Source: Novipirellula aureliae
GTDB lineage: Bacteria; Planctomycetota; Planctomycetia; Pirellulales; Pirellulaceae
Reading direction: 5' to 3'
DNA: 64,000 nucleotides
Assembly (NCBI RefSeq): GCF_007860185.1
Contig: NZ_SJPY01000009.1
Location: 26,316-90,315 of the forward strand
Shown here: in pieces, positions 6,873 through 36,349 of the stretch
Layout of the letters: each line of letters opens with the position of its first letter
How positions within the stretch are numbered: position 1 is the stretch's first letter
Program-made: the position numbers and the translations under genes
The notes under the pieces: generated by a model
The model's input: the letters and a program-made list of their open reading frames with translations, nothing else
Told to the model about the DNA's origin: nothing
Database searches by the model: none

Positions 6873-7014
6873 TCAGTTCCTGCTGGTTGCCAAAACAGAC
6901 CGTTGTCAATACGAACCCGATTCTACGACAAACGTTCGCTGGATTCGACCGGCCTAGCGGTTCGTCGATTTGGTAGAATGCCTGTTGATCCACGATCATT
7001 GTGAGGAAAACGAA

Positions 7015-7326: not shown

Positions 7327-7415
7327 TGGCGGTGAACGATCGTATTGCTTATCTGGCAGGTGCGATTATCCACCGCGGCGATAGCTTCTTAATCCATCTT
7401 CGGTGCCCTAATTCG

Positions 7416-7754: not shown

Positions 7755-7881
7755 CAGCTGCACCCCAACAAAATGCTTTGATCGGATCACAAACTGATCC
7801 GACCGGTGATTGTGGTCTTCTCCTACTGAACGTATACTGTTGGGACTTTTAGGTCAAGCTGCAACGTTGCTGGGGGCAAGG

Positions 7882-12931: not shown

Positions 12932-12964
12932 CTGACAAAACAACAAGATTACGACAAGATAAGC

Positions 12965-17499: not shown

Positions 17500-19652
17500 G
17501 TGAAACACCCTTCTCGCTCGCTGAAAGCCTGCGAATTGGAGCTGTCGACTTTGTCTCTCCTGACGAAATTCGAGTTCTGCTCGACATCGAAGCACCCGAT
17601 TCCGTTGCTTTAAACACGGGCGGTGCGAGACCGTTTCCGCGGATCAACGGATACGTGCTGGTTCCGATCGACGACGGTTTCGTGGTAGGGCAAATTGAAT
17701 GGCTAACGATCGAGCGTTCATCATTTCCAAAACGGCGTGGTGTCAAAGACTTTGGCGTGATCGACCTGCCATACCCCCTGCGGAAACTTTGCCTAAATCC
17801 ACTTGGAACACTGCGCCAGACCGATACGAGTTATTCGTTTCGTCGTGGTGCCGGGCTCCTTCCCACGGTCGGATCAGCTGTCGTATTGCCAACGACTGAA
17901 CAACTTCGCTCGATAGTCGAGTCGGGTGAAAATCGTCGTGTACGCATCGGAGTGAGTCCGCTAGCGGAAAACGCAGAGGTTAGCATCGACCCAGACCGTT
18001 TGTTCGGGCGACACCTTGCGGTGCTTGGAAATACGGGAAGCGGTAAGTCATGCACCGTCGCCGGATTGATTCGATGGTCGCTCGAAGCCGCCAAACGAGA
18101 GCGAGAAAGCAACGGAACAACTGGAAGGCCGAATGCTCGCTTTGTAATCCTTGATCCGAATGGAGAGTACGCAAGAGCGTTTCACAACGAGAAAGAGAAA
18201 AACACCGCCCGCGTGTTCAAACTTGACCCAGGCGACAGTGAGCATCCTCTGCACGTTCCGCTTTGGTTTTGGAACAGCGCGGAATGGTCTTCGTTCACCC
18301 AAGCCACAGCGAAAACTCAACGTCCAATGCTTCGTCGTGCATTGCGGGATGTGAAGGCAGGACGCGGGCTCACAGATGGTGATACTTACGAGGAGAAAAA
18401 GCTTGGACTGCGTCGCTATCTTACAAGCGTAGCCATTGGTGTCAGGAGAAGGCTTTCCACCGGTGAAATCCGAGATGATCCCACTAAAACAGGTTTTTGG
18501 CTGAAGTCCGCTTGTGAAGATCTGTCGGCTAAAACAATTGACTTTGATGATGTTCCTCTATCCGAGATCACTAAATGTATTAAGTCGGCCCTCGACAAGA
18601 GTTTTAGCTCGTTCCCGAAGGATGGAGAAACGATTGAATACTACAAACCATTTTCTGAGAATGACGTTCGATTAATCGTTGCTGCTATGGACGGCGCTCT
18701 GGACTGCCTCGGTGGCCTGTTGTACGAAGACGGACCGGACGAAGACATGCCGATTCGTTTCAAAGGGATTGAGCTTGCCGATCATCTTCAACTAATCGCG
18801 GCGCAAGAGAACGCCAGTCAGTTCGTCGACTTTCTCGTTTCACGTATCCGAACCTTCCTTAGCGATTCCCGCTGCAATTCAATTGTCGAGGGAGATAACT
18901 CGCCGACACTCCAGCAGTGGCTCGAAACCTATGTCGGCAGCGAGAATGAGGATGAAAGCCCGATTTCGATTCTGGATCTTTCCTTGGTTCCGACGGAGAT
19001 TGTCCATGTAGTGATCGCGGTTTGCAGCCGGATGATTTTTGAATCACTTCAACGTTACCGCAAGATCCACAAGAAAGCACTGCCGACAGTTTTGGTGATG
19101 GAAGAAGCCCACACCTTCATCAAACGCTACAAGGACGATGTTGACAATCACGATGCGGCAAAGGTCTGCTGTCAAGTCTTCGAGCGAATCGCACGCGAGG
19201 GACGTAAGTTTGGCCTTGGACTGGTCCTTTCGTCTCAGCGTCCATCTGAACTCTCACAGACGGTGCTTTCGCAGTGCAATACCTTCGTTATGCACCGCAT
19301 CAGCAATGACCGCGACCAAGAGCTCGTTAAGAAGCTTGTTCCCGACAACCTCCGAGGTTTGCTACGCGAATTACCGTCACTGCCTTCGCAGCACGCGATC
19401 ATCCTTGGATGGGCAACGGAGTTTCCGCTTTTGGTACGGATCGACGATTTGAAGAAGGAGCAACAACCACACTCTGATGACCCGGACTTCTGGGACGTTT
19501 GGACAGGGCAAGATGACTGCAATGAACCGGTCGACCGTCCAGCAAATTGGGATTCCGTAGTTCATGACTGGCAAGGCGTGGTCAAAAAAATTACCGACGA
19601 TGGTACGGGCGAAGACGCTCAATCGGTCGATCCAGACGACGCACCTTTTTAA
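17496..19652 (+). CDS. HerA-like ATPase (SIR2-HerA defence pair)
   Basis: This 718-residue protein has the HerA/FtsK-type fold. The N-terminal beta-barrel (HAS-like) region covers about residues 1-110, Walker A is GNTGSGKS at 178-185, and Walker B is LVMEEAHTF with E536-E537. SSQRPSEL and the Arg-rich MHRISNDRDQELV sensor and finger segments follow. HerA proteins form hexamers that pump DNA or act as scaffolds; with SIR2 they build a large NADase complex. Its start is inside the SIR2 stop (ATGA at 17496-17499). The length suits the family and no lesion is visible. Confidence 0.9.
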   Translation: MSETPFSLAESLRIGAVDFVSPDEIRVLLDIEAPDSVALNTGGARPFPRINGYVLVPIDDGFVVGQIEWLTIERSSFPKRRGVKDFGVIDLPYPLRKLCLNPLGTLRQTDTSYSFRRGAGLLPTVGSAVVLPTTEQLRSIVESGENRRVRIGVSPLAENAEVSIDPDRLFGRHLAVLGNTGSGKSCTVAGLIRWSLEAAKRERESNGTTGRPNARFVILDPNGEYARAFHNEKEKNTARVFKLDPGDSEHPLHVPLWFWNSAEWSSFTQATAKTQRPMLRRALRDVKAGRGLTDGDTYEEKKLGLRRYLTSVAIGVRRRLSTGEIRDDPTKTGFWLKSACEDLSAKTIDFDDVPLSEITKCIKSALDKSFSSFPKDGETIEYYKPFSENDVRLIVAAMDGALDCLGGLLYEDGPDEDMPIRFKGIELADHLQLIAAQENASQFVDFLVSRIRTFLSDSRCNSIVEGDNSPTLQQWLETYVGSENEDESPISILDLSLVPTEIVHVVIAVCSRMIFESLQRYRKIHKKALPTVLVMEEAHTFIKRYKDDVDNHDAAKVCCQVFERIAREGRKFGLGLVLSSQRPSELSQTVLSQCNTFVMHRISNDRDQELVKKLVPDNLRGLLRELPSLPSQHAIILGWATEFPLLVRIDDLKKEQQPHSDDPDFWDVWTGQDDCNEPVDRPANWDSVVHDWQGVVKKITDDGTGEDAQSVDPDDAPF

Positions 19653-19880
19653 TTGACTGGCTTGAATCCAATGCAATCTCGGATCTCCGTTACCTTCACC
19701 GGCATCGTCATCCGCCTGATTTCCCACAAGCCAAAGACGATTGAGGCAACCGTGTTTATCTTGCACGTGAATTCTGCCAGTCCGGAACAGCAGCCTCAAA
19801 CCGTTATGCGATACAAAGACAGTGTCATCCGGCTGATACGAAGTGGTCTAGGATTGAGAATCGGAGTTCGGGCACGATGA
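19653..19880 (+). CDS. possible small ORF between herA-like and ABC-3C genes
   Basis: An open frame of 75 codons fills the only sizeable gap in the run. Its stop TGA (19878-19880) overlaps the next start as ATGA, the same arrangement used by real neighbours here. Possible starts are TTG 19653, directly after the HerA stop, or ATG 19671. The product is basic and slightly hydrophobic (ISVTFTGIVIRLISHKPK) with no known domain. It could equally be a chance frame over a leader or promoter for the ABC-3C genes. Confidence 0.3.
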   Translation: MTGLNPMQSRISVTFTGIVIRLISHKPKTIEATVFILHVNSASPEQQPQTVMRYKDSVIRLIRSGLGLRIGVRAR

Positions 19881-20968
19881 CAACTCAACCCGCTAACAAC
19901 GAACTCGCTCCGTTGCCACGACCGAAGCAGCCAGAAAACGTCACCCCTGAAAATGTGGGCACCGGAATTCTCGTGCCGCCAATCAAACTCATCCGGTTGT
20001 TCAGCCCGGACGATTGGGAGGAGTTTGTCTTGGAGTGGGCGGACTCGTTTCGCGACGATTACTTCAGCGTGAACCGATCCGGTGGTGCGGGGGACATGGG
20101 GCGTGATGTCGTGGCGAGCGTCGATGACTCGGAAACCGTCTGGGAAAATTTTCAATGCAAGCACTACAAGTCCGCCATCACGCCGTCGGATATTTGGTGC
20201 GAGTTTGGAAAATTGATTTATTACGCGTGCCGCGGTGAGTTCACTTATCCGCGAAAGTACGTGTTCGTTGCATCACAGGGAGCCGGCAACAAACTGGCGA
20301 AGTTGCTGAAGGATCCAGAGAAGCTGAAGAATGAGCTGAAAGCGAACTGGGCATCCTATTGCGAAAATGCAATCACGGAGACGACGGCGATCCCTTTGAA
20401 AGGCCAATTGCTGAAGTTTCTCGACAAAGCTGATTTTGGCATTTTTAGTGCGATTCCACCGTTGCGGCTCATCGAGCAGCATCGGAAGACTCCGTACCAC
20501 GTCTACCGTTTCGGCGGTGGCTTGCCGAATCGCCCCACTGACATGCTTCCGCCCGCCGCGGTCGCAGACATCGAAGTCAGGTACGTGCGGGCCTTGCTCG
20601 ATGCATACGGAAGCAATCTGTCTCGCGTCCTGAATGACGCTGATGAGTTGAAATCCTTTGCGGAGTTGCGGGCTCATTTCGATCGCTCGCGTCACGAGTT
20701 TTACAGTGCTGAGTCGTTGAAGCGTTTTTCACGTGACACGCTGCCGCCAGGTTCTTTTGAAGAGCTTCAGCGGGAGTACTTTGACGGGATTATGGACGAG
20801 GTTGATTCAGATCACAGTGATGGTTTCGCTAGGGTCAAAGCCGTGATTAAGTTGGCTCGTGTGCTTCAGATTACGTCGCATCCGCTGGTTCCGCGGATGG
20901 AGACACGTGATCGCGGAGGCATCTGCCACCAACTTGCGAACGACGAACGGGTGAGGTGGGTTAAGTGA
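19877..20968 (+). CDS. ABC-three-component system effector with Mrr-like nuclease domain
   Basis: The N-terminal domain has the restriction-endonuclease pattern GDMGRD (D73 to D77) followed by FQCKHYK (Q93-C-K95), typical of Mrr-like PD-(D/E)xK nucleases in which Gln replaces the Glu. The C-terminal 130 residues match the shared C-terminal domain of ABC-3C effectors (SFEELQREYFDGIMDE). It is followed without gap by a middle component and a RecF/SMC-type ATPase, which fixes the system. I infer that the ATPase senses something and releases the nuclease on DNA. The stop overlaps the next start (GTGA at 20965-20968). Confidence 0.85.
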   Translation: MTTQPANNELAPLPRPKQPENVTPENVGTGILVPPIKLIRLFSPDDWEEFVLEWADSFRDDYFSVNRSGGAGDMGRDVVASVDDSETVWENFQCKHYKSAITPSDIWCEFGKLIYYACRGEFTYPRKYVFVASQGAGNKLAKLLKDPEKLKNELKANWASYCENAITETTAIPLKGQLLKFLDKADFGIFSAIPPLRLIEQHRKTPYHVYRFGGGLPNRPTDMLPPAAVADIEVRYVRALLDAYGSNLSRVLNDADELKSFAELRAHFDRSRHEFYSAESLKRFSRDTLPPGSFEELQREYFDGIMDEVDSDHSDGFARVKAVIKLARVLQITSHPLVPRMETRDRGGICHQLANDERVRWVK

Positions 20969-21477
20969 GTACCGGATCGAATGAAACAACCGTTTCGCCA
21001 TTCAATAGCCCTGTCGAGTTGGGTTTTCGAACACTGGTTTTTTTAAACGAAGCTTTCCCGAATGAATTTTCGCTTCGGCAGCTCGTTATCTTCGACTATT
21101 TGATGGTTCACTCGGATGACGTTGCGGGTGGCCCTGAAGGACTGCATCCGCAGACCCCGTACCGCAGCGGCGAGTTGCTCGTTCGCCGCGAGCCCTTGCA
21201 AGCTGGAATACAGCTTTTCCACAGCCGAGGCTTGATCGAAAAGCTCTATCGTCAGACCGGTGTTTTCTTCGCAGCGAGCGATCGCACCGAATCGTTTCTC
21301 GATGTCATTGAAGCGGATTATTCAGTCACCCTGCGGAATCGAGCGAGCTGGGTAGCCGAAACGTTCGGGGATAAGTCTGTCGAGTACCTTGACGACTTTG
21401 TAGCCGCCAACCTTGGCAAGTGGGGCGCGGAGTTTGAGATGGCCTCCGTCCTTTGGAATGGGGTTGCAGATGACTGA
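20965..21477 (+). CDS. ABC-three-component system middle component (type 2)
   Basis: This 170-residue protein opens with PFNSPVELGFRTLVFLNEAF and continues with FDYLMVHSDDVAGGPEGLHP and YRSGELLVRREPLQ, which is the recognisable signature of ABC-3C middle component 2. It is a winged-helix-like adaptor between effector and ATPase. The start codon is GTG, overlapping the effector stop; the end overlaps the ATPase start by eight bases (21470-21477). Length is normal for the family and no residue appears lost. Confidence 0.9.
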   Translation: MSTGSNETTVSPFNSPVELGFRTLVFLNEAFPNEFSLRQLVIFDYLMVHSDDVAGGPEGLHPQTPYRSGELLVRREPLQAGIQLFHSRGLIEKLYRQTGVFFAASDRTESFLDVIEADYSVTLRNRASWVAETFGDKSVEYLDDFVAANLGKWGAEFEMASVLWNGVADD

Positions 21478-23332
21478 CTACGGTTTCTACATCGAACGAG
21501 TCTGGCTGACCGGTCCGGACGTAGCGGAAGCGGCGGTCGATTTCCAAGACGGCTTGAACGTCGTTTCCGGCCCATCAAATACCGGCAAGACGTACATCTC
21601 CCAGTGCATCGACTACGCCTTTGGCCGCAAGAATGCCCCCAAGGAAATCCCTGAAGCACGCGGATATGACGAACTTCACGTTCGAATACAACCGAGGTCG
21701 AAGCCCCAATCGCTGACGATTCGACGAAGCCTGCGGTGTGGCAACACGGGAACAGTGTCGGAAATCGGAGACGAACGGGTTCTCAAAGCCACGCACTCGG
21801 ATGATCGCGACGACAACATCTCAGCATTGTTGCTCGAGCTGTGCGGACTGCGAAACAAACGAATAACGACCAATGGTAAGGGCAAAACACGGAGCGTCAG
21901 TTTCCGGGACATTTCCCATCTCACGATCATCAGCGAAGAACAAATCATTCGCAACGATTCGCCGATTTGGTCCGGAAATTACCAAGAGCACACTCTTCGT
22001 CAAAGTATTTTCCGGCTTCTTCTAACCGGCGTCGACGATTCCTCGGTTATTGAAAAGAAAGAAGAGAAGGTCAGCCGTGCTGAGAATCGTGGCAAAGGCG
22101 AAGTCCTGGAGAAGATCAAATCTGACCTTCAAGTGCAAATTGCCCAGTACAATAGTCGCGGTAGCGCCGACGAACTTCGCTCGCAGCGAGATCGCTTGGC
22201 CAGAACAATTAATGAGCTGTCAGCGTTCCTTGAGACGCAGAAGCAAGACTTGGCAGGCATTGAGTCAGAACGTCTTCAGACTTGGACCGAATTGCAGCGA
22301 ATCGAATCTCGGCAAGAGGTCGTCGAGCAACTCTTGGTTCGGTTTTCGCTTCTTGCGGAGCAGTACGAATCGGATCGCAGGCGGCTTGAATCCATCAACG
22401 AGGTGGGCAATCGACTCGAAGAATTGAGTGAGGAGCGTTGTCCTATCTGTGGAGCACCCTCGGAATACCATAGCGAAGATCACAAAGAGGGCTCGGTGTC
22501 GCCGGAAGAGGTTTCAGTTGCTGCGGCTGCTGAAATCACGAAGGTAAATCGGCTACAGAAGGATCTGACAGACACCATTCGGGATACGAGAAACGAAAGT
22601 GACGATCTCGCGTCTCAACGAGTCTTGCTTGAAACGTCGCTGACGCAGGTGACGCAACGGCTTCACGGTGAATATCAGCCGAAAGTCGCGGATACACTTC
22701 AGCAGTACCAGCAACTGCTCAAGCAACAGACAAGTATTGCTGAATTGATTGGTCTTTACGATCGTCTGGAGCAACTTGAAGCGATCGAGTTCGAAGCAAA
22801 GGCGATTCTGGCCGCAGAGACTAGCGGTGATCCAATCATCACTAAAATTTCGAGTGATCTCGCCGCTCCGTTCTGTTTGGAAGTCGAACGTTTGCTGGAG
22901 GCGTGGCAGCTTCCCGATCGCGGGCGTGTCGCGTTCAGTGAAAGCAGCCAAGATATCGTCATTGGCGACCGTGCCCGAAGAGTCGACGGGAAGGGAATCC
23001 GTGCCATTACCCATGCAGCATTCTCGTTCGCCCTGAACAATTATTGCGTTAATCGAAAGCTTCCCACGTCCTCGATCGTCATCCTTGACTCGCCGCTTGT
23101 CGTCTACCGTGAACCCGATGAAACGGAATTGGAATTCTCACTTGACGTCAAAGCCAACTTCTATAGCCAGCTAGCGAACGGTTCGGACGATCGGCAAGTC
23201 GTCATATTCGAGAATGATGATCCACCCACCGACCTATCAGAAACTGTCAACATGATTCACTTCACAAAATCAGAGGATGGGCGGTACGGCTTCATTCCAA
23301 GAAACCTCGATGCCGCAGATAGCGGGGAGTAA
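21470..23332 (+). CDS. ABC-three-component system RecF/SMC-like ATPase
   Basis: Walker A is GPSNTGKT at residues 34-41 near the N-terminus, as in RecN/SMC-like ABC ATPases. Long coiled-coil arms follow (about 195-310 and 335-430), joined by a CPIC hook (C324-C327) that could pair in a Rad50-like zinc hook. The C-terminal lobe carries SSIVILDSPLVVY as a Walker B and D-loop. I start it at MTDYGFY (21470) and not at the upstream ATG because of the tight overlap with the middle component. It provides the ATP-driven sensor of the trio. The stop and next start form TAATG. Confidence 0.88.
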   Translation: MTDYGFYIERVWLTGPDVAEAAVDFQDGLNVVSGPSNTGKTYISQCIDYAFGRKNAPKEIPEARGYDELHVRIQPRSKPQSLTIRRSLRCGNTGTVSEIGDERVLKATHSDDRDDNISALLLELCGLRNKRITTNGKGKTRSVSFRDISHLTIISEEQIIRNDSPIWSGNYQEHTLRQSIFRLLLTGVDDSSVIEKKEEKVSRAENRGKGEVLEKIKSDLQVQIAQYNSRGSADELRSQRDRLARTINELSAFLETQKQDLAGIESERLQTWTELQRIESRQEVVEQLLVRFSLLAEQYESDRRRLESINEVGNRLEELSEERCPICGAPSEYHSEDHKEGSVSPEEVSVAAAAEITKVNRLQKDLTDTIRDTRNESDDLASQRVLLETSLTQVTQRLHGEYQPKVADTLQQYQQLLKQQTSIAELIGLYDRLEQLEAIEFEAKAILAAETSGDPIITKISSDLAAPFCLEVERLLEAWQLPDRGRVAFSESSQDIVIGDRARRVDGKGIRAITHAAFSFALNNYCVNRKLPTSSIVILDSPLVVYREPDETELEFSLDVKANFYSQLANGSDDRQVVIFENDDPPTDLSETVNMIHFTKSEDGRYGFIPRNLDAADSGE

Positions 23333-25407
23333 TGATGCAATTCCGAATCTCCGACACGTTCACCGACAGCCTGACGCGGTTGACCGGCGATGAACAGAAA
23401 GCGGTCAAGACGACCGCGTTCGACTTGCAGGTGAATCCGGCCAATCCCGGATTGCAGTTCCATCGCATCGAGCGTTGCAAAGACAATCATTTTTGGTCAA
23501 TCCGTGCGGGCCGTGATATCCGTGTGATTGTTCACAAGACGGACGCGAGCTTGCTGCTGTGCTATGTCGATCACCATGACAAGGCGTACCAGTGGGCCGA
23601 AAAACGGAAACTGGAACGACATCCGAAAACGGGCGCGGCGCAATTGGTAGAGATTCGCGAGACGGTGCGCGAGATCGAGGTGCCGACATACGTGGAGGCG
23701 ACTCCGCAACCATCACCACCATGCTTGGCAGGTATGGTCCGCGAGGACTTGCTGACTTATGGTGTACCGGATCAATGGGTCGACGATTGCCTCGCCGCCG
23801 ACGAAGACCGCTTGCTAACAATCGCAGACCGGTTGCCCGGCGAAGCTGCCGAGGCGTTGTTGATTCTGGCGACGGGGGGACGACCGGAACCGCGGACGGT
23901 GGCCGATGTCGATGATGATCCGTTCAACCACCCGGACGCACTGACGCGATTCCGCGTTCTGGACGATGCTGATGAACTGGCGGCGGCGCTCGATGCCCCG
24001 TGGGAAAAGTGGATTGTCTTTTTGCATCCGGCCCAACAGGGCTTTGTCGATCGACGCTTCAACGGTCCGGCCCGCGTGTCAGGCAGTGCCGGAACAGGGA
24101 AGACCATCGTGGCGATTCACCGCGCAGCGGCGGCCTTGAAGTCGGCGCCCCTTAAAGCGGCGACGATGCACGTTTTGTTGACAACGTTCTCCGAAGATTT
24201 GGCGAAGGCTTTGGTGCAGAAGGTGCGGTACCTGATACCTTCCGAACGGATCTCGCGTACTTTGCCAAAGCCGGACGGCGAACCGAAACTGGTGGTGGCT
24301 TCGCTTGATGAAATCGCTAAACAATTCCACGCCATGCAACATGGGACGCCGGCCGACTGCATTGACGACGAGAAACTGCTTGACCGGATTGAGGCGATCA
24401 TCGCTAAATCCGACGGTGTATCGCTTACGCCGCGGTTCCTCTTGGATGAATGGAACGATGTGGTTGACGGCTGGAAATTGGCATCGTGGTCGGACTATCG
24501 GGATTTCAAGCGGCTAGGACGTAAAACGCGTTTAAGTGAATCCGGACGCGAGCAGGCTTGGGGCGTCTTTGAAGAATTGCGTGCCACCCTTCGATCAAGG
24601 GGACAAAGCACGCCGGCAATGTTGTACGCCGATTTGGGTCAGTCGGAGCATCGCCCGTTTCACAGCGTGATCGTCGACGAGTGCCAAGACGTTAGCCCGG
24701 CACAATTGCGATTCCTGGCCAACCTGACTAAGAATCATTCTGGTGAATTGTTCTTTGCCGGCGATTTGGGACAACGAATATTTCGTACACCGTTCTCGTG
24801 GTCCTCTCTTGGCGTCGAGGTTCGCGGACGAAGCCGGACACTAAGAATCAACTACCGAACGTCACACCAGATTCGGCGGATGGCAGACAGGTTGCTCGAC
24901 GGATCATTGACGGATGTTGATGGCAACGAAGAACATCGAGATGGGACCATCAGCGTGTTCAACGGCCCCCGTCCATCGGTTTACATGGCCGATGATGAAA
25001 ACGCCGAATCCGATCACGTCGCAGACTGGCTGCTCGCGCGGATCAACGAGAACGTCGATCCTTCAGAAATCGCGATTTTTGGACGCACGATCGATCAATT
25101 GGCCCGTGCTCGCGACGCAGTCCGAAAAGCATCGGACATTTCCGGTCACGGTTTGGGAGCCATTCGTTTGGCGACGATGCACGGAGCGAAAGGTCTCGAA
25201 TTTCGCTGCGTCTGCGTGATGGCTTGCGATGACGACATCGTCCCACTGGAAGAACGTATTCGGGCAATCGGTGATCATGCGGACCTCGAAGACATCTACA
25301 ACACCGAGCGCCACTTGCTTTACGTCGCCTGCACCCGAGCCCGCGATCAACTGATGATTACCGGCGTCGATCCGGCATCGGAGTTTCTTGAGGACTTCAA
25401 TTGTTGA
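23332..25407 (+). CDS. RelE-like domain fused to UvrD/Rep-type helicase
   Basis: Residues 1-95 form a RelE/ParE-like fold (LQFHRIERCKDNHFWSIRAG, then DIRVIVHK and YVDHHDKAYQWAEKR). A linker follows and then a superfamily 1 helicase: Walker A GSAGTGKT at 251-258, motif II DECQD at 449-453, GDLGQRIF as motif III, and LLYVACTRARDQL near the end. The RelE fold may cleave mRNA or may only be structural, since family members fused to helicases are uncharacterised as far as I know. The start overlaps the ABC-3C ATPase stop, so it is probably co-expressed with the trio. Confidence 0.85.
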   Translation: MMQFRISDTFTDSLTRLTGDEQKAVKTTAFDLQVNPANPGLQFHRIERCKDNHFWSIRAGRDIRVIVHKTDASLLLCYVDHHDKAYQWAEKRKLERHPKTGAAQLVEIRETVREIEVPTYVEATPQPSPPCLAGMVREDLLTYGVPDQWVDDCLAADEDRLLTIADRLPGEAAEALLILATGGRPEPRTVADVDDDPFNHPDALTRFRVLDDADELAAALDAPWEKWIVFLHPAQQGFVDRRFNGPARVSGSAGTGKTIVAIHRAAAALKSAPLKAATMHVLLTTFSEDLAKALVQKVRYLIPSERISRTLPKPDGEPKLVVASLDEIAKQFHAMQHGTPADCIDDEKLLDRIEAIIAKSDGVSLTPRFLLDEWNDVVDGWKLASWSDYRDFKRLGRKTRLSESGREQAWGVFEELRATLRSRGQSTPAMLYADLGQSEHRPFHSVIVDECQDVSPAQLRFLANLTKNHSGELFFAGDLGQRIFRTPFSWSSLGVEVRGRSRTLRINYRTSHQIRRMADRLLDGSLTDVDGNEEHRDGTISVFNGPRPSVYMADDENAESDHVADWLLARINENVDPSEIAIFGRTIDQLARARDAVRKASDISGHGLGAIRLATMHGAKGLEFRCVCVMACDDDIVPLEERIRAIGDHADLEDIYNTERHLLYVACTRARDQLMITGVDPASEFLEDFNC

Positions 25408-26341: not shown

Positions 26342-26873
26342 ATTCTCTCCACAGAGTTAGTGAGAAGAACTGACGCAAGTGGGTCCGCTTTGTTGCCAAG
26401 CTCGGCCACATGCCTGTGTTGCAGATCGCAATGACCTGGACGCAGGGACCACCTTGCCCGGACAGGGCAGGTTGGCGAGGGCGTCAGCCCTACTCTTCAT
26501 GAAATAAGCGGAGAGCGACATCTACTCTCCTCCTATACGATAGTGATATTCGATGAGAATTCAGGGCGCGATATTTATTGATATCTCATAAAAGAAATCC
26601 CCGCGACTGATTGCTCTGCTGCGGGTGTTTTGGTTTGTGTCGCCAGGAAGGATCACGTTGCGGATAACGTCCGACGTTGCTCGAAGATTCGTCTGCGAAC
26701 CTACAATGCGTCGCTCCATGCTGCTAAATTAGGCTTCGGGAACGACGCAATGTCGTACCTTGCCGGACTCGTCATCCTCTTCGGCAAAGCTGATGCTGCT
26801 CGTCCAGTCTGCTTGCAAACCCTTAGCTGAGCTACGTCCACCCTATTCGATCGGTCGTGACATAATCGAAGCT
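26342..26873. other. intergenic stretch, no supported gene
   Basis: I see no convincing gene. A plus-strand frame at 26630-26830 has a TTG start, no ribosome site and no recognisable motif. The stretch before it contains a pyrimidine- and GC-rich part (26440-26530) without a clear repeat. It probably holds the promoter of the minus-strand gene ending at 25727. Confidence 0.4.
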
Positions 26874-28852: not shown

Positions 28853-29002
28853 CTACACTGTGCTGCCTGCCTTCACTACAACCTCATCGCCATCATTAAT
28901 ACCGTGGATACTAAACATGTCTGATGACTTCACATCGGCTCTAAAAGTATAACCAGATAACCGCGCGAGTACAATGCGCATTCGATTTGATCTTCCCGTC
29001 AT
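28853..29002 (-). CDS. 49-residue protein coupled to the MerR-like gene
   Basis: The start ATG at 29002 overlaps the MerR-like gene's stop as ATGA, so translation is probably coupled. The product is MRIVLARLSGYTFRADVKSS followed by a short segment ending DGDEVVVKAGSTV, which looks like a small beta-barrel or SH3-like piece. A longer frame starting at 29068 is less likely because it runs through the upstream gene. No family is known; a regulator accessory role is only an inference from coupling. Confidence 0.5.
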   Translation of the reverse strand: MTGRSNRMRIVLARLSGYTFRADVKSSDMFSIHGINDGDEVVVKAGSTV

Positions 29003-29625
29003 ATGTCGACACGGCGTGTTCCTCGTTCGCGCGTTCGACCCGATGGAACGTTGTGCTTCGGAAAACAATCGGTCAAAGGGACGACGAGCAAGGCGGCACT
29101 CGCTTCGCCGCTCTGCTGCGTCAACATGACTGTTACCTCAGTGGAGGAAGCCACTGTCGCACTCGTTCCGTCCCATACCAAAACAACATCATATCCGTTG
29201 CCTGCCAGACGGTGAGCCTTATCCACAAGCTCCTCTGGAAACAGTGTAGATGCCGTCGGCGTCGCGTTGCGATCCCGAAATGCTCGCACGGCAGCAAGCA
29301 CGATCTTCCGCGCCGCAAGCAATTCACGCTTTACGCCGCTTGAATCGGATCCCGGTTTCGACTTGCTTTTTGGCTTCTTGTTTGTGAACTCAGCGTCGAT
29401 CTTTTGCTTCACTTCCGCGACCGACCTGCCGTCCATGAAAAGCTCTTGCAAGCGAATGCAAAGTGCGACGATTGCCCGGTCCCATACAGCAACGCGTCCC
29501 TTCTTGCCTGCGAGTGCGATACGCTGCGGCGGCGGGATTAACCCCGCCTGCCGCCATCGCGTCAGTGTGCGTCGATCGACGCCAATTGCAGAAGCTAAAT
29601 CAGCGGTACTAATTTTTTCGGACAA
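28999..29625 (-). CDS. MerR-like HTH regulator
   Basis: Residues 5-40 give a MerR-type winged helix (STADLASAIGVDRRTLTRWR, then QAGLIPPP), followed by a second helical part (ALCIRLQELFMDGRSVAEVK). The middle is Lys/Ser/Pro-rich and the last 90 residues are unlike standard MerR effector domains (NGYDVVLVWDGTSATVASST). It is divergent from the parB-like gene, with a palindrome in the 80-bp gap, so self-regulation and control of parB are likely. A second copy of the palindrome core lies before the helicase-RT genes, which makes those a possible target. Confidence 0.85.
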   Translation of the reverse strand: MSEKISTADLASAIGVDRRTLTRWRQAGLIPPPQRIALAGKKGRVAVWDRAIVALCIRLQELFMDGRSVAEVKQKIDAEFTNKKPKSKSKPGSDSSGVKRELLAARKIVLAAVRAFRDRNATPTASTLFPEELVDKAHRLAGNGYDVVLVWDGTSATVASSTEVTVMLTQQSGEASAALLVVPLTDCFPKHNVPSGRTRERGTRRVDI

Positions 29626-29705: not shown

Positions 29706-30554
29706 ATGCGATCGAAAAAAGTAAGAATTGAGAACCTTACCCATCATCAGTGGCAAGGCAGTATTATATCAGACTTGCAACCGAAAGAATTCGCCTCGCT
29801 AAAAAATGATATTGAACAGCGAGGACTGCAAACCCCCATCCTCGTCACTCGCGATTTTATGGTGATCGACGGACATCAGCGGCTGCGGGCGTGTGTCGAA
29901 TTGAAATTCGACGAGATCGATGCTGTTTATTTTGAGCCCACGTCAGAGCACGAACGTGATCAAGCATTCTTATTAAACAATATCCAACGACGGCAGATGG
30001 GTGTCGTCGCGCGAGCCCGAGCGATCCAAAAACTTGTAGAAATAGAACGCGCGAAAATGTTTGGTTGTCGCAGTCGTCCGACGGCATCACAACTCCGTGA
30101 TCGCATTGCTAAATCGATCGGTGGCTCAATGAGCGGTCGTACCGTCGACCGCTATATCCAACTGCTCAGGCTGCCGACTTGGTTGCAAGACTGCGTCGAC
30201 CGCGGCGAGGTCGGTTTGGTCCTGGCCCTCAAATGCGAGCGATTAGATCGCGCAACCTTAGAGTCGATCGAGGCCAAAATACTAACTGGAGTGCATCCGA
30301 AAAAACTTATTAAATCCGCGCTCGATGAAAAACCGACAAGCCACGCCGTGGGCGTCGAAACGGACACCGAGGTCAATCCGTACGACGAATTTCTGGACAC
30401 CGCGGCATGGTTTCTGAACTGGCTCGACGACGATATCGATTCAATCGTAGGCACAGCTGCCGTGGATTTGGATATTGTCGCAACGCTTGATCGAATGATC
30501 CAAACATGCACTGCTGTTCGCGACGGCGAAGCGACGCTATGTGAGAGTTCGTAA
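29706..30554 (+). CDS. ParB/RepB/Spo0J-family protein
   Basis: The N-terminal domain has the ParB pattern: GLQTPILVTRDF, then VIDGHQRLRAC in place of the usual GEHR box, and DQAFLLNNIQRR as the third block. A helix-turn-helix-like region follows (GGSMSGRTVDRYIQLLRLP). The last 80 residues are acidic and unique. ParB-fold proteins bind palindromes and hydrolyse CTP; here no ParA gene is next to it, so a regulator or a host-factor role is as likely as DNA partition. A terminator-like hairpin lies 30 bases past the stop. Confidence 0.85.
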   Translation: MRSKKVRIENLTHHQWQGSIISDLQPKEFASLKNDIEQRGLQTPILVTRDFMVIDGHQRLRACVELKFDEIDAVYFEPTSEHERDQAFLLNNIQRRQMGVVARARAIQKLVEIERAKMFGCRSRPTASQLRDRIAKSIGGSMSGRTVDRYIQLLRLPTWLQDCVDRGEVGLVLALKCERLDRATLESIEAKILTGVHPKKLIKSALDEKPTSHAVGVETDTEVNPYDEFLDTAAWFLNWLDDDIDSIVGTAAVDLDIVATLDRMIQTCTAVRDGEATLCESS

Positions 30555-30631: not shown

Positions 30632-30646
30632 CGGACACGGTGTCCG
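30632..30646. promoter_or_regulatory. perfect 15-bp palindrome before the helicase-RT genes
   Basis: CGGACAC (30632-30638), a central G, and GTGTCCG (30640-30646) form a perfect palindrome. Its core GGACACGGTGTC differs by one base from GGACATGGTGTC between the merR-like and parB-like genes. It lies 46 bases before the helicase-like start and after the terminator-like hairpin, so it is a likely operator for this transcript. Confidence 0.6.
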
Positions 30647-30691: not shown

Positions 30692-32254
30692 ATGTCGACA
30701 CAATCAGGCCATTACCTCGCGCTTTTCGACGGGGCCTCGCCCGCTCCGTATACGATCGAGATCCTTGGAACCTTTTCTAAGGTCGGCGATCAGTTACAAG
30801 CTATCGCCTCCGAGACGCTGGTCTATGAAACGATAGAGCCGAGTGCAATTGACGTCGGCACGATCCAGTTTAAGATGCGTCCAATCAGCCTTTGTTGGCA
30901 AAAACACGGCACGTTTTTTATACCTACTGGCTTAGTGCCGCGACTGAATCGCGAACTGCAAAATCGAGCCGTCGCAGCGAGCATTGTCGATCGACGGTAT
31001 TTCGATCCGCGTTGGTTTAAGGTTTCCGAATCGGACGCAAAGACCGTAGAGGGCGTTGCCTCCGGATTTGCGGACGCAATCCGTCTTCCCACCGAATCGG
31101 TTATTGAGGTGCTGCGTGGCCGCCGACGTTGGAAGCTGATTGCAGCGGTTTGTAGTTTCTTTCGTTGTGCCAAGGTCTTCGTTATCACGGCGAGGAAAGC
31201 AGACGCGGCTGAGGGGGCGGATTGCATAAGTGAGTTTGGTAGCCAAGCCAAGGCCGTCCATGGAACCGCATGGCGCGACACCACTCGCGTGGTTGTTGGC
31301 ACCCACCGTGCATTCGCAAACTGCTACCAGGAGGATTGGCACGCTATCATTTTGGAGGATGCGGCTGAGTCATACCGCTACGAGATCCTTGAGCAGCTTT
31401 CGGTTTGCTATCGGCATCGGGTTTTTGCGTTCGCCAACCCTGGCGAGACAGCGAGAACGAAAGCGAACCTCATGCGTTTCGAGCATCTTGCCGGTCCGGT
31501 CATCTACCCACCTCTTGCTGCGAAAAACTTGCCGCCTATTCTGCATGCCGCGTCTTATCGAGCGCCGCAGCGAATCATCTCGCAGAATCGCCGAACACGA
31601 ACGGAAGAAATCTATCGGTTTGAGGATAGAAACCTGGCGATTGCGAGGATGGCTGATGCCGTTGCGCGACGTGATCCCGAGAGTTTGCTCGAGTACGGTT
31701 TGGATTTTGGCCCGTCGCTAGGCGTGGCAGGGCAGATGATCAAGATTTGGGTGGAATCGAGGGCTCATGGTGAGATCTTGAAACGCATGCTACCATCAGC
31801 ATGGATGATTCGATCCATCTCTGACGCTTATCAAGAAATCGACGACATTGATACAGAGCTGAGCCCTCGTGACATCGTAACTAGCACGGCGATAGCCCAC
31901 CAGGGTCGAATCGCTGCTGATTTTATCATTGTCGCAAGCGGCAGCCTACCGCTTTCCTTACTGCGAATCTCACGGTTCAGCGCAACGCGTACCACGATCA
32001 TCGACCTTTTGGACGAAAGCAACGACATCCTCGCAGCCGAGTGTCGGCAGCGATTCGAGGGTTACAGGCAGGCCGGTTTCGAGTTGGCAAACCTTAGTCG
32101 GCTTACGGCGCTCGACGCATGGAGTACTCAAGACACGGAAGACACCCAAGGAGCTCGCATCCGTAACTCAAATTCATCTTATTCCCGCCGAAAGCGATCG
32201 CGACGCAATCGGCAATCCGCATCAACGAATCAAAGGAGACCTAACAATGTATGA
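30692..32254 (+). CDS. degenerate SF2 helicase-like protein, partner of the RT
   Basis: The 520-residue protein follows the SF2 layout but lacks the catalytic signatures. Where Walker A should be it reads EVLRGRRRWKLIAA (139-152), with no GK(S/T). Motif II is IILEDAAE (219-226) in place of DEAH. The preceding VVVGTHRAFAN and a late IAHQGRIAADFIIVASG look like motifs Ia and V of an active ancestor. It is therefore probably an RNA/DNA-binding or docking subunit without ATPase activity. A Lys/Arg/Ser-rich tail (SRRKRSRRNRQ) closes it. It overlaps the RT gene by eight bases (ATGTATGA), so the two act together. Confidence 0.7.
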   Translation: MSTQSGHYLALFDGASPAPYTIEILGTFSKVGDQLQAIASETLVYETIEPSAIDVGTIQFKMRPISLCWQKHGTFFIPTGLVPRLNRELQNRAVAASIVDRRYFDPRWFKVSESDAKTVEGVASGFADAIRLPTESVIEVLRGRRRWKLIAAVCSFFRCAKVFVITARKADAAEGADCISEFGSQAKAVHGTAWRDTTRVVVGTHRAFANCYQEDWHAIILEDAAESYRYEILEQLSVCYRHRVFAFANPGETARTKANLMRFEHLAGPVIYPPLAAKNLPPILHAASYRAPQRIISQNRRTRTEEIYRFEDRNLAIARMADAVARRDPESLLEYGLDFGPSLGVAGQMIKIWVESRAHGEILKRMLPSAWMIRSISDAYQEIDDIDTELSPRDIVTSTAIAHQGRIAADFIIVASGSLPLSLLRISRFSATRTTIIDLLDESNDILAAECRQRFEGYRQAGFELANLSRLTALDAWSTQDTEDTQGARIRNSNSSYSRRKRSRRNRQSASTNQRRPNNV

Positions 32255-34187
32255 CCGGCCGGCCTGGCGGGCGGCCTCAATCAGCCCCGCCAGCGCTCAT
32301 GCCCGCCATGATCCTTATGCGATCCGTCACACGGACCGCGAAGGTTTCTTGCGCCGTCATGAAGTAGAAGCCAACCAAGCCGCCCGGAGCAGCAAATGCG
32401 AACGCAACGCATTCGCTCAAAAACTGCTGGCCCGGGCAGTTGATGCTAAGAATATCCGTATTGCAATCGATAAGTGCGCCGTCCCAGGCAAAGCTCCGGG
32501 ACCAAGCGGCGTAAGGGGTGAAGACCTAGATGACAAGTCGCGGTGGGAGCTTGCAAATGTGCTCTCCGCCGCGATGAAGTCTGAAAGTTTCTGCCCCGGA
32601 CCGACCCGCAGCGTTCGCATCCCGAAGATTGCTACCGATACCACGCCCCCGGGGCACGCCCCAACGGATTTCCGCGAACTGCGGATCCAAAATATTGAGG
32701 ACCGCGTGGTAGAGCGAGCGATCTTACAAGCTATACGGCCGTACCTAAGTCCGACCTACTCCGATCTATGTTTTGGGTCTCGCTACCCAGGACGATCAAG
32801 GGAAGAGGCACTAGCGGTAGCCGAACATTTGAGCCACGACCAAAACAGATGGGTCTGGCTGTGCGAGGACATCCGTGGTGCATTTGACCATGTTCCCATT
32901 GGCCGGTTGATGGACGTCATACGGAAACGCATCCCGTGTGACGCCCTCTGCCGGCTGATGGAAACTGTTATCCGTGGTAATGTCTTGAGTAGAATAGGAA
33001 TAAGACAAGGCAGCCCACTTTCAGGCGAAATGCTAAACCTATTCCTAGATCACACACTTTACCGATGGTGGAATAAACACCATGGCGAAACCCCAATACT
33101 GAGCTTTGTGGATGATCTTCTGATCCTAACCACAAATAAACAAGAGGCAACAACCCTTTGTAAGCAATTAAGAAACAGACTCCTGGATATAGGTCTTCAG
33201 CTAAAGGGAGACCCGGGAAAAACTGCTATTAACATGCAGCACGGGAAGAGTGCCGAATGGCTCGGTTATAGTGTGAGGAAAGTGTCAGGACGGTTAAGCG
33301 TACGGATAGCTGCCAAAGCGTGGTCCAAACTAAGAGCTAACCTGTATCAGTGCTGGGAAAAAGACTTACCGTCTATCCGAGCTAATCAGGTAATCGAGGG
33401 ATGGATTAGGCAGATGGGGGCAGCTTACCAGCAATTAGACGTTAATCCTACATATGACCGGATCACTCTGGAGGCGAGGATGATGGGATTCGATGAAACC
33501 CCTAATATCCAAACTATCCAAAAATGGTGGAGTATAGCCCATAGTCACCATTGGATCCGTACGAGACGGTATGTAGCTATTACACGACCTAGGAGCGTGA
33601 TAGGACAGCATCAGTGTTTTGCGAATGGCTTCGCCGATTCACATGTTTTTTTTGAGCAATTACCGATTGGACAGCAGTCAATCGAAGATTCAGTAAGGCC
33701 GGAGCAGAATCGCCCAGGGCAACACCAGCACCGCGAGCTGGAACTGTTCTGCGGCGGTCACTGTTCCAATCGCGGCCAAGTCGGGGGCTGGGCGTTTTCG
33801 CTCCAGACCCCCGCTGGTCGCGTTTTACAAGAGGCGGCGGATTCGCATCCTCGGGCGTCTCTACAGCGAATGCACTTGATGGCAATTGACCGCGGCCTAC
33901 GACATTGTTCCGGCGGCGCTATCGTGACCCTGGTTGTGACGGACCAACTGGTCGAGGACATAATGGCACGCCACCTTCGCGACTGGCTCCGACACGGGTG
34001 GCGGTCAATTCGGCATCGAGCCAATGCGAGGCTTTGGACACGCATCGGCGGGCAACTCCGTCGTGTCAATCTACGGGTACAATTCGTCAAAGCGGAGCAT
34101 GGCAATCGACGCGTCCAGTCGGTTTGCGATAGGGCCAAGATGGCATCGTCTCATACTGAGCAAATTGCGGTGGCGAATGAAACATAA
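32247..34187 (+). CDS. reverse transcriptase with degenerate C-terminal RNase H-like domain
   Basis: RT blocks are all present: GKAPGPSGV (81-89), FRELRIQNIEDRVVERAI (142-159), EDIRGAFDHV with D208, RQGSPLSGEMLNLFLD (253-268), FVDD at 287-290, then LQLKGDPGKT and WLGYSV. Both catalytic Asp of FVDD and D208 are kept, so polymerase activity is expected. From about 497 an RNase HI-like domain follows (LFCGGHC, QRMHLMA, VVTDQLVED, EHGNRRVQSVCDRA), but the first Asp is Gly503 and the Glu is His543, so cutting is unlikely. The start at 32247 follows AAGGAGA. No group II intron domain V or retron-like RNA was seen after it. Confidence 0.85.
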   Translation: MYDRPAWRAASISPASAHARHDPYAIRHTDREGFLRRHEVEANQAARSSKCERNAFAQKLLARAVDAKNIRIAIDKCAVPGKAPGPSGVRGEDLDDKSRWELANVLSAAMKSESFCPGPTRSVRIPKIATDTTPPGHAPTDFRELRIQNIEDRVVERAILQAIRPYLSPTYSDLCFGSRYPGRSREEALAVAEHLSHDQNRWVWLCEDIRGAFDHVPIGRLMDVIRKRIPCDALCRLMETVIRGNVLSRIGIRQGSPLSGEMLNLFLDHTLYRWWNKHHGETPILSFVDDLLILTTNKQEATTLCKQLRNRLLDIGLQLKGDPGKTAINMQHGKSAEWLGYSVRKVSGRLSVRIAAKAWSKLRANLYQCWEKDLPSIRANQVIEGWIRQMGAAYQQLDVNPTYDRITLEARMMGFDETPNIQTIQKWWSIAHSHHWIRTRRYVAITRPRSVIGQHQCFANGFADSHVFFEQLPIGQQSIEDSVRPEQNRPGQHQHRELELFCGGHCSNRGQVGGWAFSLQTPAGRVLQEAADSHPRASLQRMHLMAIDRGLRHCSGGAIVTLVVTDQLVEDIMARHLRDWLRHGWRSIRHRANARLWTRIGGQLRRVNLRVQFVKAEHGNRRVQSVCDRAKMASSHTEQIAVANET

Positions 34188-34271: not shown

Positions 34272-34661
34272 ATGTCTCAAACCAATGCCGCCCAAGCTTG
34301 GGACGATCGGCTCGCTCGATTCGATCGCCTCGACATCACTGTTCGTCAGTTCTGCCTCAACGTAGGTGTCTCGCAGGTATCTTTCTATTACTGGCGCGCG
34401 AAGCGTTGCGGCAGCCGCTCTGACATCGAGCATCACCAACCCAAATCGTTAGCAAGATGCATTCCGGTTTCTTTGGCCGTGCCTGAACCGCCAAAGCCGC
34501 AATCGGCGATGGCTGTGAAGATGGCTGTGGATCTGCCCGGTAGCATTCGTATCCGATGTTGGCCCTCCGCCGTTAGTTCCATTGTCTGTCTCTGGTCGGG
34601 GAACGTTTCGAGCAACACGAGTGAGAGGCTTGCCGCCAGATCGACAATGCAGGCTGACTAG
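34272..34661 (+). pseudogene. remnant of an IS66-type accessory gene (TnpA)
   Basis: The frame begins MSQTNAAQAWDDRLARFDRL and has VRQFCLNVGVSQVSFYYWRA, the helix-turn-helix typical of IS66 accessory protein TnpA. A later LPGSIRIRC fits its second conserved stretch, but the following bases lose similarity and the frame ends at the TAG of the IS1380 terminus. No TnpB or TnpC follows because the IS1380 element is inserted here. It is a dead fragment. Confidence 0.65.
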
Positions 34662-36349
34662 CCCGGATTATTCACGAGCGTTCTGATTTGAGAACGTTTG
34701 AAAGAATTTGGGTGAGATTCGCTGGGGTAGGTGCTTTGGTGCTCGATCCGCGCGGACCGCCCCCTTACCCCCATTCAGAATTTCGTCTCGCCTCTGGCAG
34801 ATTTAGGCACTGTTGAGGTCGGGCCGAGCGTAGCCCGATAGCAGATCCGCAACACGCCCCAGATGATTGGCCCACGGCCAACTCGATGAGAATTGCACGC
34901 GGACTCGCCGCGTGCGGACGATCACTCGGCACGCGACCTTGATCACGTGAGTCCGCCACGTGCAAGCGTGACCCTCTCCCAAAGGGTCGCGGCGACGGCG
35001 GCGAGTGTGATGACGACGCTTGACCCCAGGCGACTGAGCTTCTAAAGGAATCTCAGCATTGGCGAACTCATCAATCTCAGGCACTCTCTCGACAATCTGC
35101 CGAATTCGCACCAGCAAGTTCGCCGCAACGCTGTGCATCATCACGCGGAACAGATTGGCCATGTAACGATGGTCACTGAGGCGATCACAACACAATTCAC
35201 ACTTGAGTTCCTTGTTACGATTTTCGCTCTCGCCACGATCGGCGTACTCGTCATAAACGCCGCCCGGACAAACACTCACACCCGGGCGATTGGTAACCAC
35301 AGCGCGGCGGTTAGTCCCTTGGGATTGAACCTCGCACTTGACCACGATGCTGCGAGATCGCGGCCAACCTTTCGCTCGGTAATCAAGCAAGAGGAAGTTC
35401 CGTTGAGACTCGCCGGAGGATTCGAACGCGGCCACACTTTGCTGCAAAAGCTCGCTACTTTCGCGTTTGACGCGTGCATTCATCTGATAGCCGATGCTGT
35501 AGAGAACGCCATCGAGCCGTTCCAATGTGTCATACATTTCAGGGACCGCGAACCCTGAATCGGCACGAACGTGAATGGTCACATGCGGGAATCGCTGGCG
35601 AATCTTTTCAATGACTCGGGCCAGATCGTCGGCAGCTCCCAAGCTGGCGTGAGCCGAGCCGAACAGCAAACTTGGCAACACGATCATGTCGTTCTCGGCA
35701 CACGTGATCGCACGGACTTGATACTGGTACTGGTTGTAGAAACCGTGAAAGAGGACGAGTTGTTGATTACCGTGAGCAGGATCATCAAACGTATCGATAT
35801 CCAGCGTGAGCTCGTTAGGCTCTTCGGTGAAGGACTCCACAAAACGATCGATGAACCAGTCTTCCATTTTGAGGAGATCGCCTGCAGTGACCGAGTTTTC
35901 CAATCGTGAGATCGTCGGTTGGCTGGCCAAGTCGTCGCCGTCGGGTGATTGTTCGGCGATAAGTTTGAAGACAGGATCGCTTCGCAAGGAGTCGTGGTCG
36001 TTCTGATCTTCGTATCCCGCGATGATCCCGAAGATGCGTTGACGAACGATCGACAGAGCGGTGTGAGTGGGGTCGGATCGCGGGTCGGAGATGAGGTTCG
36101 CCAGGGATTTTGTCCAACCGAGTTTTTGATCGAGCTGATAGAAGGCGATCAGTCCGCCATCGGAGGATAGATTCTCCTCGACTTGCTCAAATTCGATCGG
36201 TTTATTGTCCCAAAAGCCCAAGACAAATTGCTGCGCAGACTGTAAACTCATGAAGGGTCTTCCTTGTTTGTCGAAAGTGCTTTGTTGTTAAACACTTAGA
36301 CGCAAGAAAGGCCCTTTTTGTTTGGTGTCTCGTGAATAATCCGGGCTAG
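34658..36349 (-). mobile_element. complete IS1380-family insertion sequence
   Basis: The element is bounded by perfect inverted ends that start CTAGCCCGGATTATTCAC (34658 onward) and mirror at 36329-36349, and it holds one full transposase gene on the minus strand. The 21-bp arms are identical. If CTAG is counted as target, each end is flanked by CTAG, which fits a 4-bp duplication. The element splits an IS66 remnant on the left from a methyltransferase remnant on the right. Intact ends and gene suggest recent or ongoing activity. Confidence 0.9.
34803..36251 (-). CDS. IS1380-family transposase
   Basis: This is a 482-residue transposase of the IS4/IS1380 DDE group. The N-terminus reads SDGGLIAFYQLDQKLG and IIAGYEDQNDHDSLRSDP; then SRLENSV, LDIDTFDDPAHGNQQ (first catalytic Asp region), HVRADSGFAVPEMY (second Asp), and YADRGESENRNKELK (the Y-E segment with the Glu). 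All three acidic positions look kept, so the enzyme is probably active. A basic tail after residue 400 (KRRHHTRRRRRDP) is present. It fills nearly the whole element. Confidence 0.93.
   Translation of the reverse strand: MSLQSAQQFVLGFWDNKPIEFEQVEENLSSDGGLIAFYQLDQKLGWTKSLANLISDPRSDPTHTALSIVRQRIFGIIAGYEDQNDHDSLRSDPVFKLIAEQSPDGDDLASQPTISRLENSVTAGDLLKMEDWFIDRFVESFTEEPNELTLDIDTFDDPAHGNQQLVLFHGFYNQYQYQVRAITCAENDMIVLPSLLFGSAHASLGAADDLARVIEKIRQRFPHVTIHVRADSGFAVPEMYDTLERLDGVLYSIGYQMNARVKRESSELLQQSVAAFESSGESQRNFLLLDYRAKGWPRSRSIVVKCEVQSQGTNRRAVVTNRPGVSVCPGGVYDEYADRGESENRNKELKCELCCDRLSDHRYMANLFRVMMHSVAANLLVRIRQIVERVPEIDEFANAEIPLEAQSPGVKRRHHTRRRRRDPLGEGHACTWRTHVIKVACRVIVRTRRVRVQFSSSWPWANHLGRVADLLSGYARPDLNSA

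Follow-up and report, generated by a model that had tools for sequence, protein, structure and literature searches.

A group II-like reverse transcriptase clade of planctomycetes paired with a motor-dead helicase-like protein, probably for defence

In the planctomycete Novipirellula aureliae, two overlapping genes for a helicase-like protein and a reverse transcriptase (RT) occupy positions 30692-34187 of the 64,000-nt stretch analysed here (positions 26,316-90,315 of contig NZ_SJPY01000009.1; hereafter the window). Comparing related loci, we found that a gene for a motor-dead UvsW/XPB-type protein has an RT gene of one clade next to it, on its 3' side, in nearly all cases. The system appears undescribed and is probably defensive, a function that we infer mainly from the setting of the window copy, the spread of the pair and analogy. 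We see about an even chance that it represents a domesticated planctomycete RT system, derived from group II introns and equipped with a dead-helicase partner, which serves most likely in anti-phage or anti-element defence.

Recurrence of the pair and nature of the two proteins

Among the 67 loci carrying the helicase-like gene, 58 have an RT gene directly 3' of it on the same strand, and the two genes are close, overlapping or merged into one polypeptide. Six of these 58 loci encode both proteins in a single open reading frame (ORF), and the fusions look like they sit at two or more places in the RT tree. Such frequent pairing, together with the fusions, led us to reject a chance adjacency. 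The earlier note on this DNA had asked whether the helicase-like gene recurs beside the RT or whether the pair is confined to one genome; it recurs, in many loci. Two of the nine remaining helicase-like loci stop at contig ends, and seven have no RT in the expected place (L111, L125, L132, L135, L136, L145 and L147), some of which are clearly broken or fragments; in L125, an RT is present on the other strand.

The spread of the pair is patchy, with several matches in certain genomes and a single copy in the window's own genome. A single-sequence search of 296 genomes of the order recovered one real relative besides the window, and its third match (G029) was discarded, as it reads as an SMC-like protein. 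Profile searches matched 9 of 392 genomes in a phylum sample (two-row profile; at least one match is doubtful), 22 of 170 in a one-family sample, 47 of 397 in the window's class (by inference Planctomycetia) and 8 of 294 in a further phylum sample, including three weak matches outside the class; these samples overlap, and all but the one-family sample include the window's genome. Re-examination of G319 (E = 7e-4 in the phylum search) revealed nothing, and the fetched locus of G584 (L214), a weak out-of-class match, gave no profile match. When contigs were scanned with the window RT as a query, no relative was found, while the matches listed from a scan with an RT alignment comprised L076 (from a Planctomicrobium metagenome-assembled genome), L077 (from a Planctomycetaceae metagenome-assembled genome; its contig seems to be that of L060) and L078, which was rejected because it looks like an ordinary group II-type RT. 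No relative was found in plasmids, phages or viral contigs, each scanned with one query protein, the viral scans reaching close relatives only.

The identification of the second gene product as an RT with an FVDD motif proved correct (Pfam RVT_1, E = 6.9e-21, residues 139-342). When the RT-family profile was compared with PDB, group II RTs were nearest (GsI-IIC, E = 1.5e-59; G2L4 RT, E = 1.7e-25), and the B-type RT in an AlphaFold2 model of a fusion protein matched the GsI-IIC RT across ~375-450 columns. We inferred the RT tree with IQ-TREE from 98 rows, namely 59 family members and 39 other RTs, mostly of related genomes. Surveying 60 related genomes for RVT_1 supplied 40 of the 41 RTs taken as references; those with 150 or fewer aligned residues were excluded, and reference RTs of retrons, diversity-generating retroelements, UG families and CRISPR systems were outside the set. 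The references were not classified one by one, and most are called group II by score and appearance.

In this tree, 60 rows (the 59 family members and L201) formed one clade with support 99/98, separate from the 38 other planctomycete RTs. L201 was the sole member of the clade among the 41 references, and by eye it is fused as well, which makes it a seventh fusion. A separate RT clade, as the earlier note had anticipated, was thus recovered, and with the references used it did not fall inside a known retron, group II or defence-associated RT (DRT) clade. The clade splits into subclade A (23 rows, support 98/93), which includes the window with L061-L065 as its nearest rows, and subclade B (37 rows, 100/99). 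The catalytic motif follows this division: it is YxDD or xxDD in all 23 rows of A, YxDN or xxDN in all 37 rows of B, and ends in DD in all 38 other reference RTs. The motif A Asp and the first Asp of the catalytic motif are invariant in a 27-row alignment of both subclades. Subclade B retains the RT fold, but Asn replaces the second catalytic Asp, so its chemistry may differ. Because this residue is otherwise conserved, the clade is an experiment of nature with the active site of an RT.

The partner is predicted to have a superfamily 2 (SF2) fold of the UvsW/XPB type. The window protein had no family over cut-off in Pfam, PADLOC or NCBIfam (the lone sub-threshold Pfam row was DNA_pol3_chi, E = 0.044) and no sequence match at E = 1 among PDB chains. 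Its AlphaFold2 model, built from a 23-sequence alignment (pLDDT 77.9), had T4 UvsW, archaeal XPB and RadD among its best Foldseek matches in PDB (best E = 8.9e-13); template-modelling scores by query length were low (0.25-0.43 in the list) and root-mean-square deviations high, so that the assignment rests on the Foldseek E-values. The description of this protein as helicase-shaped and devoid of Walker A and DEAH agrees with what we found, as the ATPase motifs are gone. None of the 49 family domains counted (those above 150 bits and 1,100 nt) has the Walker A Lys, the motif II DE or the motif VI GR..R, judged against an active control, L213, an intact-motif SF2 helicase at the edge of the profile's reach; two of the 49 have an Arg where motif VI has its first Arg.

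The control itself deserves mention. L213 (positions 5422-7413; G462) encodes a UvsW-like helicase with intact motifs in a genome of the same phylum, outside the window's class, and no family RT was found within the 15 kb fetched. A helicase of this kind is a possible active ancestor type of the dead partner.

Gene layout, hairpin and RNase H-like domain

The features of the window copy are as follows.

28999-29625, minus strand: gene for a MerR-like regulator, divergent from the ParB-like gene (Pfam MerR_1, E = 4.8e-05)
29706-30554, plus strand: gene for a ParB-like protein (ParB_N / Noc-like; NCBIfam parB_part, E = 2e-12, under its cut-off)
30633-30645, strand not applicable: palindrome GGACACGGTGTCC, to which the ParB-like protein may bind, from sequence and locus comparison
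30692-32254, plus strand: gene for the RT partner, 520 aa, a predicted dead SF2 protein (UvsW/XPB/RadD-type) by AlphaFold2 model, fold search and motif columns
32247-34187, plus strand: RT gene, 646 aa, FVDD, ATG at 32247; core at ~32247-33578, RNase H-like domain at ~33693-34097
33621-33642, plus strand: bulged hairpin HP1, GCGAAT-GGC-TTC-GCC-G-ATTCAC, 5 of 6 outer pairs formed, in the linker coding sequence at the 3' end of the RT core
33664-33684, plus strand: possible second hairpin of 6 bp, seen by eye and weak in the window copy; some relatives have three hairpins

The eight-base overlap of the two ORFs is present (32247-32254), with both coordinates as first given. The unit had been taken as two genes; its coordinates were right, but the unit is larger, with the ParB-like and MerR-like genes upstream.

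A hairpin with the consensus NNNNNN-GGC-TYC-GCC-N-N'N'N'N'N'N', drawn from comparison of linkers and gaps, stands just past the RT core in many genes of clade A and a few of clade B. It falls in the coding linker where an RNase H domain follows and otherwise near the gene end or in the 3' untranslated region (UTR); the remaining clade A hairpins begin 100-197 nt ahead of the RT. Hairpins with the GGC/GCC stem numbered 17 in the 34.2 kb near RTs, compared with two in 884 kb of same-strand sequence elsewhere and one on the opposite strand. With five to six outer pairs and any upper stem, 13 of the 23 clade A loci had a hairpin, where shuffles predict 1.0 hit. Selection on the nine-base core yielded 22 hairpins near RTs (35.4 kb) and 69 elsewhere (1,837 kb), and at least four of the six outer pairs, which were not used in the selection, were paired in 21 of the 22 versus 11 of the 69.

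The pairs were counted from 20 of the 22 hairpins, as L063 and L065 do not differ there from L061 and L062. Over 19 distinct rows, 87.7% of cells were paired (70.2% in shuffles), 39 cells changed on both sides (14.7 in shuffles) and the covariation score was 0.489 (0.183 in shuffles), figures that are inflated by the kinship of the rows; none of 500 shuffles was as high in any of the three. Sliding the arms by one to three columns left 47% or less paired. More than one third of the loci have such a bulged, covarying hairpin, placed either where the RT core ends or shortly ahead of the RT gene. Further hairpins follow HP1 in several loci; in some of these a T run is present, and the stretch there probably includes a terminator.

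The RNase H-like domain reported at the end of the RT is real (Pfam RNase_H, E = 1.2e-06, residues 497-629), but it is degenerate in the window copy. The catalytic acids of E. coli RNase HI are D10, E48, D70 and D134; the first three are replaced in the window by G, H and T, respectively, and D134 is kept, with an Asp one residue past the T that replaces D70. As three of the four acids are replaced, this copy is probably inactive as a nuclease. In L062, the counterparts of D10, E48 and D70 are intact. RNase H domains of two kinds occur in subclade A only, eight rows with the E. coli type (among which the window is degenerate and L061 is cut by the contig end) and three with another type; none was found in the 37 rows of subclade B.

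The hairpin and the RNase H domain bring to mind long interspersed elements (LINEs), whose RTs copy their own mRNA from 3' hairpins and some of which carry a C-terminal RNase H. The pair could accordingly be an autonomous or formerly autonomous retroelement resembling those without long terminal repeats, in which the RT copies its own mRNA from 3' hairpins and the partner finds the DNA target. The position of the hairpin in cis at the 3' end of the RT core fits this idea, as do the C-terminal RNase H domain and the fact that some genomes have several copies. L110 (positions 6418-7644) and L112 (positions 9155-10370), which belong to a single genome, share 89% identity over 1.2 kb that covers most of the RT and the 3' UTR only, upstream sequence having diverged, which points to 3'-anchored conversion or copying. 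On the other hand, the window RT has no endonuclease domain in Pfam, the window's genome holds one copy only, and target-site duplications and dispersed 5'-truncated copies are undemonstrated. Near copies in G882, G927 and G829 span the helicase-like gene and more, as a duplication at the DNA level would. All in all, we think it improbable that the pair is a retroelement of this kind. L127 (4822-6010) and L130 (3286-4470), likewise two copies within one genome, have flanks and intergenic sequence 86-92% alike, and their helicase-like and RT genes gave no DNA alignment; these are mosaic loci. The repeats around the helicase-RT genes of L130 were considered as terminal repeats and rejected, since they look like remnants of a former copy.

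The ParB-like gene is found in 15 of the 67 helicase-like loci and the MerR-like gene in 10 (single-linkage blastp clustering), the window included in both cases, and the latter always lies on the strand opposite to the pair. The ParB-like gene and an adjacent palindrome go together. Counted from the start of the helicase-like domain, the palindrome GGACAnnnTGTCC (GGACAN(3-5)TGTCC) is found between -450 and +60 in 13 of the 15 loci with the gene and in 2 of the 52 without it, namely L076 and L116 (L117, a close sibling of L116, does have the gene); over all the sequence fetched, the figures are 15 of 15 versus 3 of 52. In the two loci falling outside the zone, the palindrome is at -484 (L064) or between the helicase-like gene and the RT (L008), and in L113, which has no ParB-like gene, it is far away. 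Its 13-base form has four sites in the 7.27 Mb of the window's genome, the same number as a reversed control, so it is rare and genome-wide no commoner than expected by chance. The domain match of the window protein is under the Pfam and NCBIfam cut-offs, and the palindrome co-occurs with it; judging from sequence comparison, the ParB-like protein may bind this site. Upstream of the helicase-like gene in L018 and L019, where no ParB-like gene was found, there is a perfect 24-base palindrome, GATTTCAAAAGTACTTTTGAAATC, perhaps another operator.

Genomic setting and proposed function

The window copy adjoins a defence island (7810-25407) comprising type III restriction-modification, GmrSD/HEC-06-like, SIR2-HerA and LmuABC systems and a UvrD-type gene. 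Downstream of the pair is an IS66-type tnpA, and directly past this ORF lies an insertion sequence with 21-base perfect inverted repeats (34658-36349). In a genome of the same genus (G970), the right flank of the window copy is kept; its 20 kb yielded no ORF of the left flank, which leaves the window copy without an exact boundary.

At the other loci, we scanned 103 of 220 neighbouring ORFs, from 15 loci. A protein cluster in which the one member tested is a tyrosine recombinase (Pfam Phage_integrase) occurs in 15 loci and, for 13, lies 1.2-5.4 kb upstream of the pair on the same strand; a primase-like protein (without a Pfam match, labelled by our own reading), a PD-(D/E)XK nuclease and an AAA protein recur as well. 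The pair thus behaves as mobile cargo. It would follow naturally if the pair served an integrative element itself, in replication or recombination, and not the host, and the recombinase cluster and the recurring neighbours are what such cargo would have around it. Nevertheless, one example of each recurring neighbour matched the window weakly at best (E = 0.007), and no neighbour cluster exceeds 15 loci. We regard service to the element itself as very doubtful.

We return to defence by a domesticated RT as the preferred reading. If it is correct, the RT and the helicase-like partner would form a complex; the RT would recognise the hairpin on its own transcript and either copy cDNA from the hairpin RNA or use the RNA as a cofactor, and the dead helicase might bind branched DNA or an RNA-DNA hybrid and keep the RT there. 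The ParB-like and MerR-like proteins would gate expression via the palindrome, and some RTs of the YxDD clade would have gained RNase H domains of two kinds. Complex formation, recognition of the RNA, docking on DNA and defence are all proposals of ours, and for the gene set as a whole DNA maintenance or movement may be named as other roles. The idea that the helicase-like subunit guides or docks the RT, raised in the earlier note, agrees with the existence of fusions and with the loss of the ATPase, although the model of a fusion does not settle how the two parts are oriented to each other (predicted TM-score 0.49). Likewise, its suggestion of defence or genome maintenance fits the island beside the window copy and fits less well the integrases and transposases beside others.

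A number of observations weigh against our interpretation. Few defence models were matched at other loci: among the matches listed, DruK/Cas4-type PD-(D/E)XK nucleases appear in up to four and others in one or two, and integrases lie near at least three other copies along with several transposases, so that mobile-element cargo explains the context as well. Seven of the 67 helicase-like genes stand without a same-strand downstream RT despite room for one. The loci were found via the helicase-like gene, except L201, and L076 and L077, which came from an RT alignment built from such loci; clade RTs without a partner would mostly escape this route, though L201, drawn by the RT survey, looks fused too. 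As for the loss of motor motifs, an Asp one column off the DE Asp of the control is retained in 37 of the 49 domains, and a string search found a P-loop-like sequence in 1 of 59 and DExH/D in 9 of 59 somewhere in the domain; in the 49 aligned domains, these strings are never at the aligned motif. The RNase H of the window copy is probably inactive. The near-RT zones of the hairpin counts were set after the hairpin had been noticed, and the rows are related. The strict-core HP1 was found in 22 of 60 RT loci (17 of 23 in A and 5 of 37 in B), and with any upper stem clade B is near chance (6 of 37 loci versus 2.2 hits expected) and the density is only 0.61 per kb near RTs versus 0.12 per kb elsewhere. 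Finally, two of five covariation measures were within the range of shuffles (108 and 265 of 500 as high).

A bolder formulation, which we put forward tentatively and hold to be somewhat doubtful, is that the family makes up a new class of RT systems, in which an RT is permanently coupled to a motor-dead UvsW-like protein, recognises a bulged 3'-end hairpin of its own message and, throughout one clade, uses a YxDN active site. If so, this would be an RT of bacteria that, in the manner of LINE RTs, initiates on a 3' hairpin of its own and is directed to branched DNA. A group II-derived RT, an RNase H-like domain and an SF2 partner would also recall parts of Prp8 and Brr2, a likeness that is an analogy only. 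In any case, for one planctomycete RT lineage there are now candidates for the RNA and the operator besides a partner protein, as well as two apparently chemically different subclades, which opens its template, its primer, its binding to the partner and its phenotype to separate tests.

Some further observations concern the surroundings. The UvrD-type protein of the defence island matches the PADLOC model RTasHel (E = 8e-21), probably via its UvrD domain. Relatives of the 34658-36349 element are present in G969, with 75-79% DNA identity over longer pieces and 84% in the transposase. A SAM-I/IV riboswitch was detected at 26379-26507 on the minus strand (58.9 bits). Two unnamed accessory genes (~280 aa and 190-260 aa) occur near the pair in nine loci each by blastp clustering (L018, 10881-12637; L020, 12682-14360; L117, 5550-7247; and others), and neither has a Pfam match over cut-off.

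Relation to described RT systems

Group II intron RTs and maturases resemble the family in their RT fold and are closest in sequence profile. They differ in that the family forms a separate clade with a recurrent protein partner, no intron RNA was found (at gathering scores, Rfam gave no group II match for the window or for nine related loci), and the window RT scores low against the maturase model TIGR04416 (124 bits; cut-off 300). A degraded group II intron was rejected, given the recurrent partner and the missing intron RNA.

T4 UvsW, XPB and RadD are repair or recombination proteins, and the partner shares their fold without their ATPase motifs. Together with the affinity to G2L4 RT noted above (the same group II lineage), this might indicate a host DNA-repair RT, whose SF2 protein finds broken or branched DNA while the RT fills or anneals the ends, with no part in defence. 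Like G2L4, the family RTs are also free-standing, group II-like and without an intron, and a group II-like RT is described as acting in end joining (PMC12337344). The same source ascribes to G2L4 RT a YIDD active site and an RT3a plug, whereas YIDD is present in none of the 60 family rows, and the family adds a dead SF2 partner. Moreover, housekeeping repair ill fits the patchy spread (47 of 397 genomes), the strong divergence, the diverged copies within one genome, and the integrase and transposase settings and the defence genes of the window. A repair role of the G2L4 kind is thus unlikely in our estimation.

DRT/UG systems and retrons share with the family an RT, a patchy spread, an adjacent structured RNA in several cases and a possible defence role. 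To our knowledge, none of them has a dead-helicase partner. In PADLOC, whose models come without cut-offs, the best DRT model for the window RT was RT_UG4 (52 bits versus 117 bits for a generic RT model), and no retron-named model was among the matches listed (23 families); the NCBIfam models Drt3a and Drt2 gave 19-20 bits against cut-offs of 200 and 390. The PADLOC match to Cas1_IIIb spans the RT part only (residues 116-394), with no Cas1 domain in the window RT by Pfam and none among the 10 window genes scanned. By these model scores, a known DRT or CRISPR-associated RT was rejected.

Searches of titles and abstract openings found no description of an RT and dead-helicase system, and no mention of the DN motif appeared among the best matches; the earlier statement that no described system has this layout stands as far as these searches reached. 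Recruitment of group II-like RTs outside introns is a known phenomenon, as in spacer capture and DNA repair, and the composition found here is unlike any described one that could be compared. In its accessible text, a 2015 study left open the roles of other group II-like RT types (PMC4424553). Among these, G2L5 comprises three planctomycete RTs from Planctomyces (Gimesia) maris and Blastopirellula marina, group II-like and of undescribed function in the portions available (PMC4244168, PMC8934634, PMC4424553). According to the same portions, they share with our family the planctomycete hosts, the group II-like character and the lack of intron RNA, and their place in the tree is unsupported; one has HTH_Tnp_1 and Tra5 genes alongside, and L024 of our family has an apparent IS3-type transposase ORF 3' of the RT. 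A partner gene, an RNA and a motif split go unmentioned in these portions, and the word 'helicase' does not occur in PMC4244168 or PMC8934634. Compared by description only, the orphan G2L5 RTs may belong to the RT and dead-helicase system presented here.

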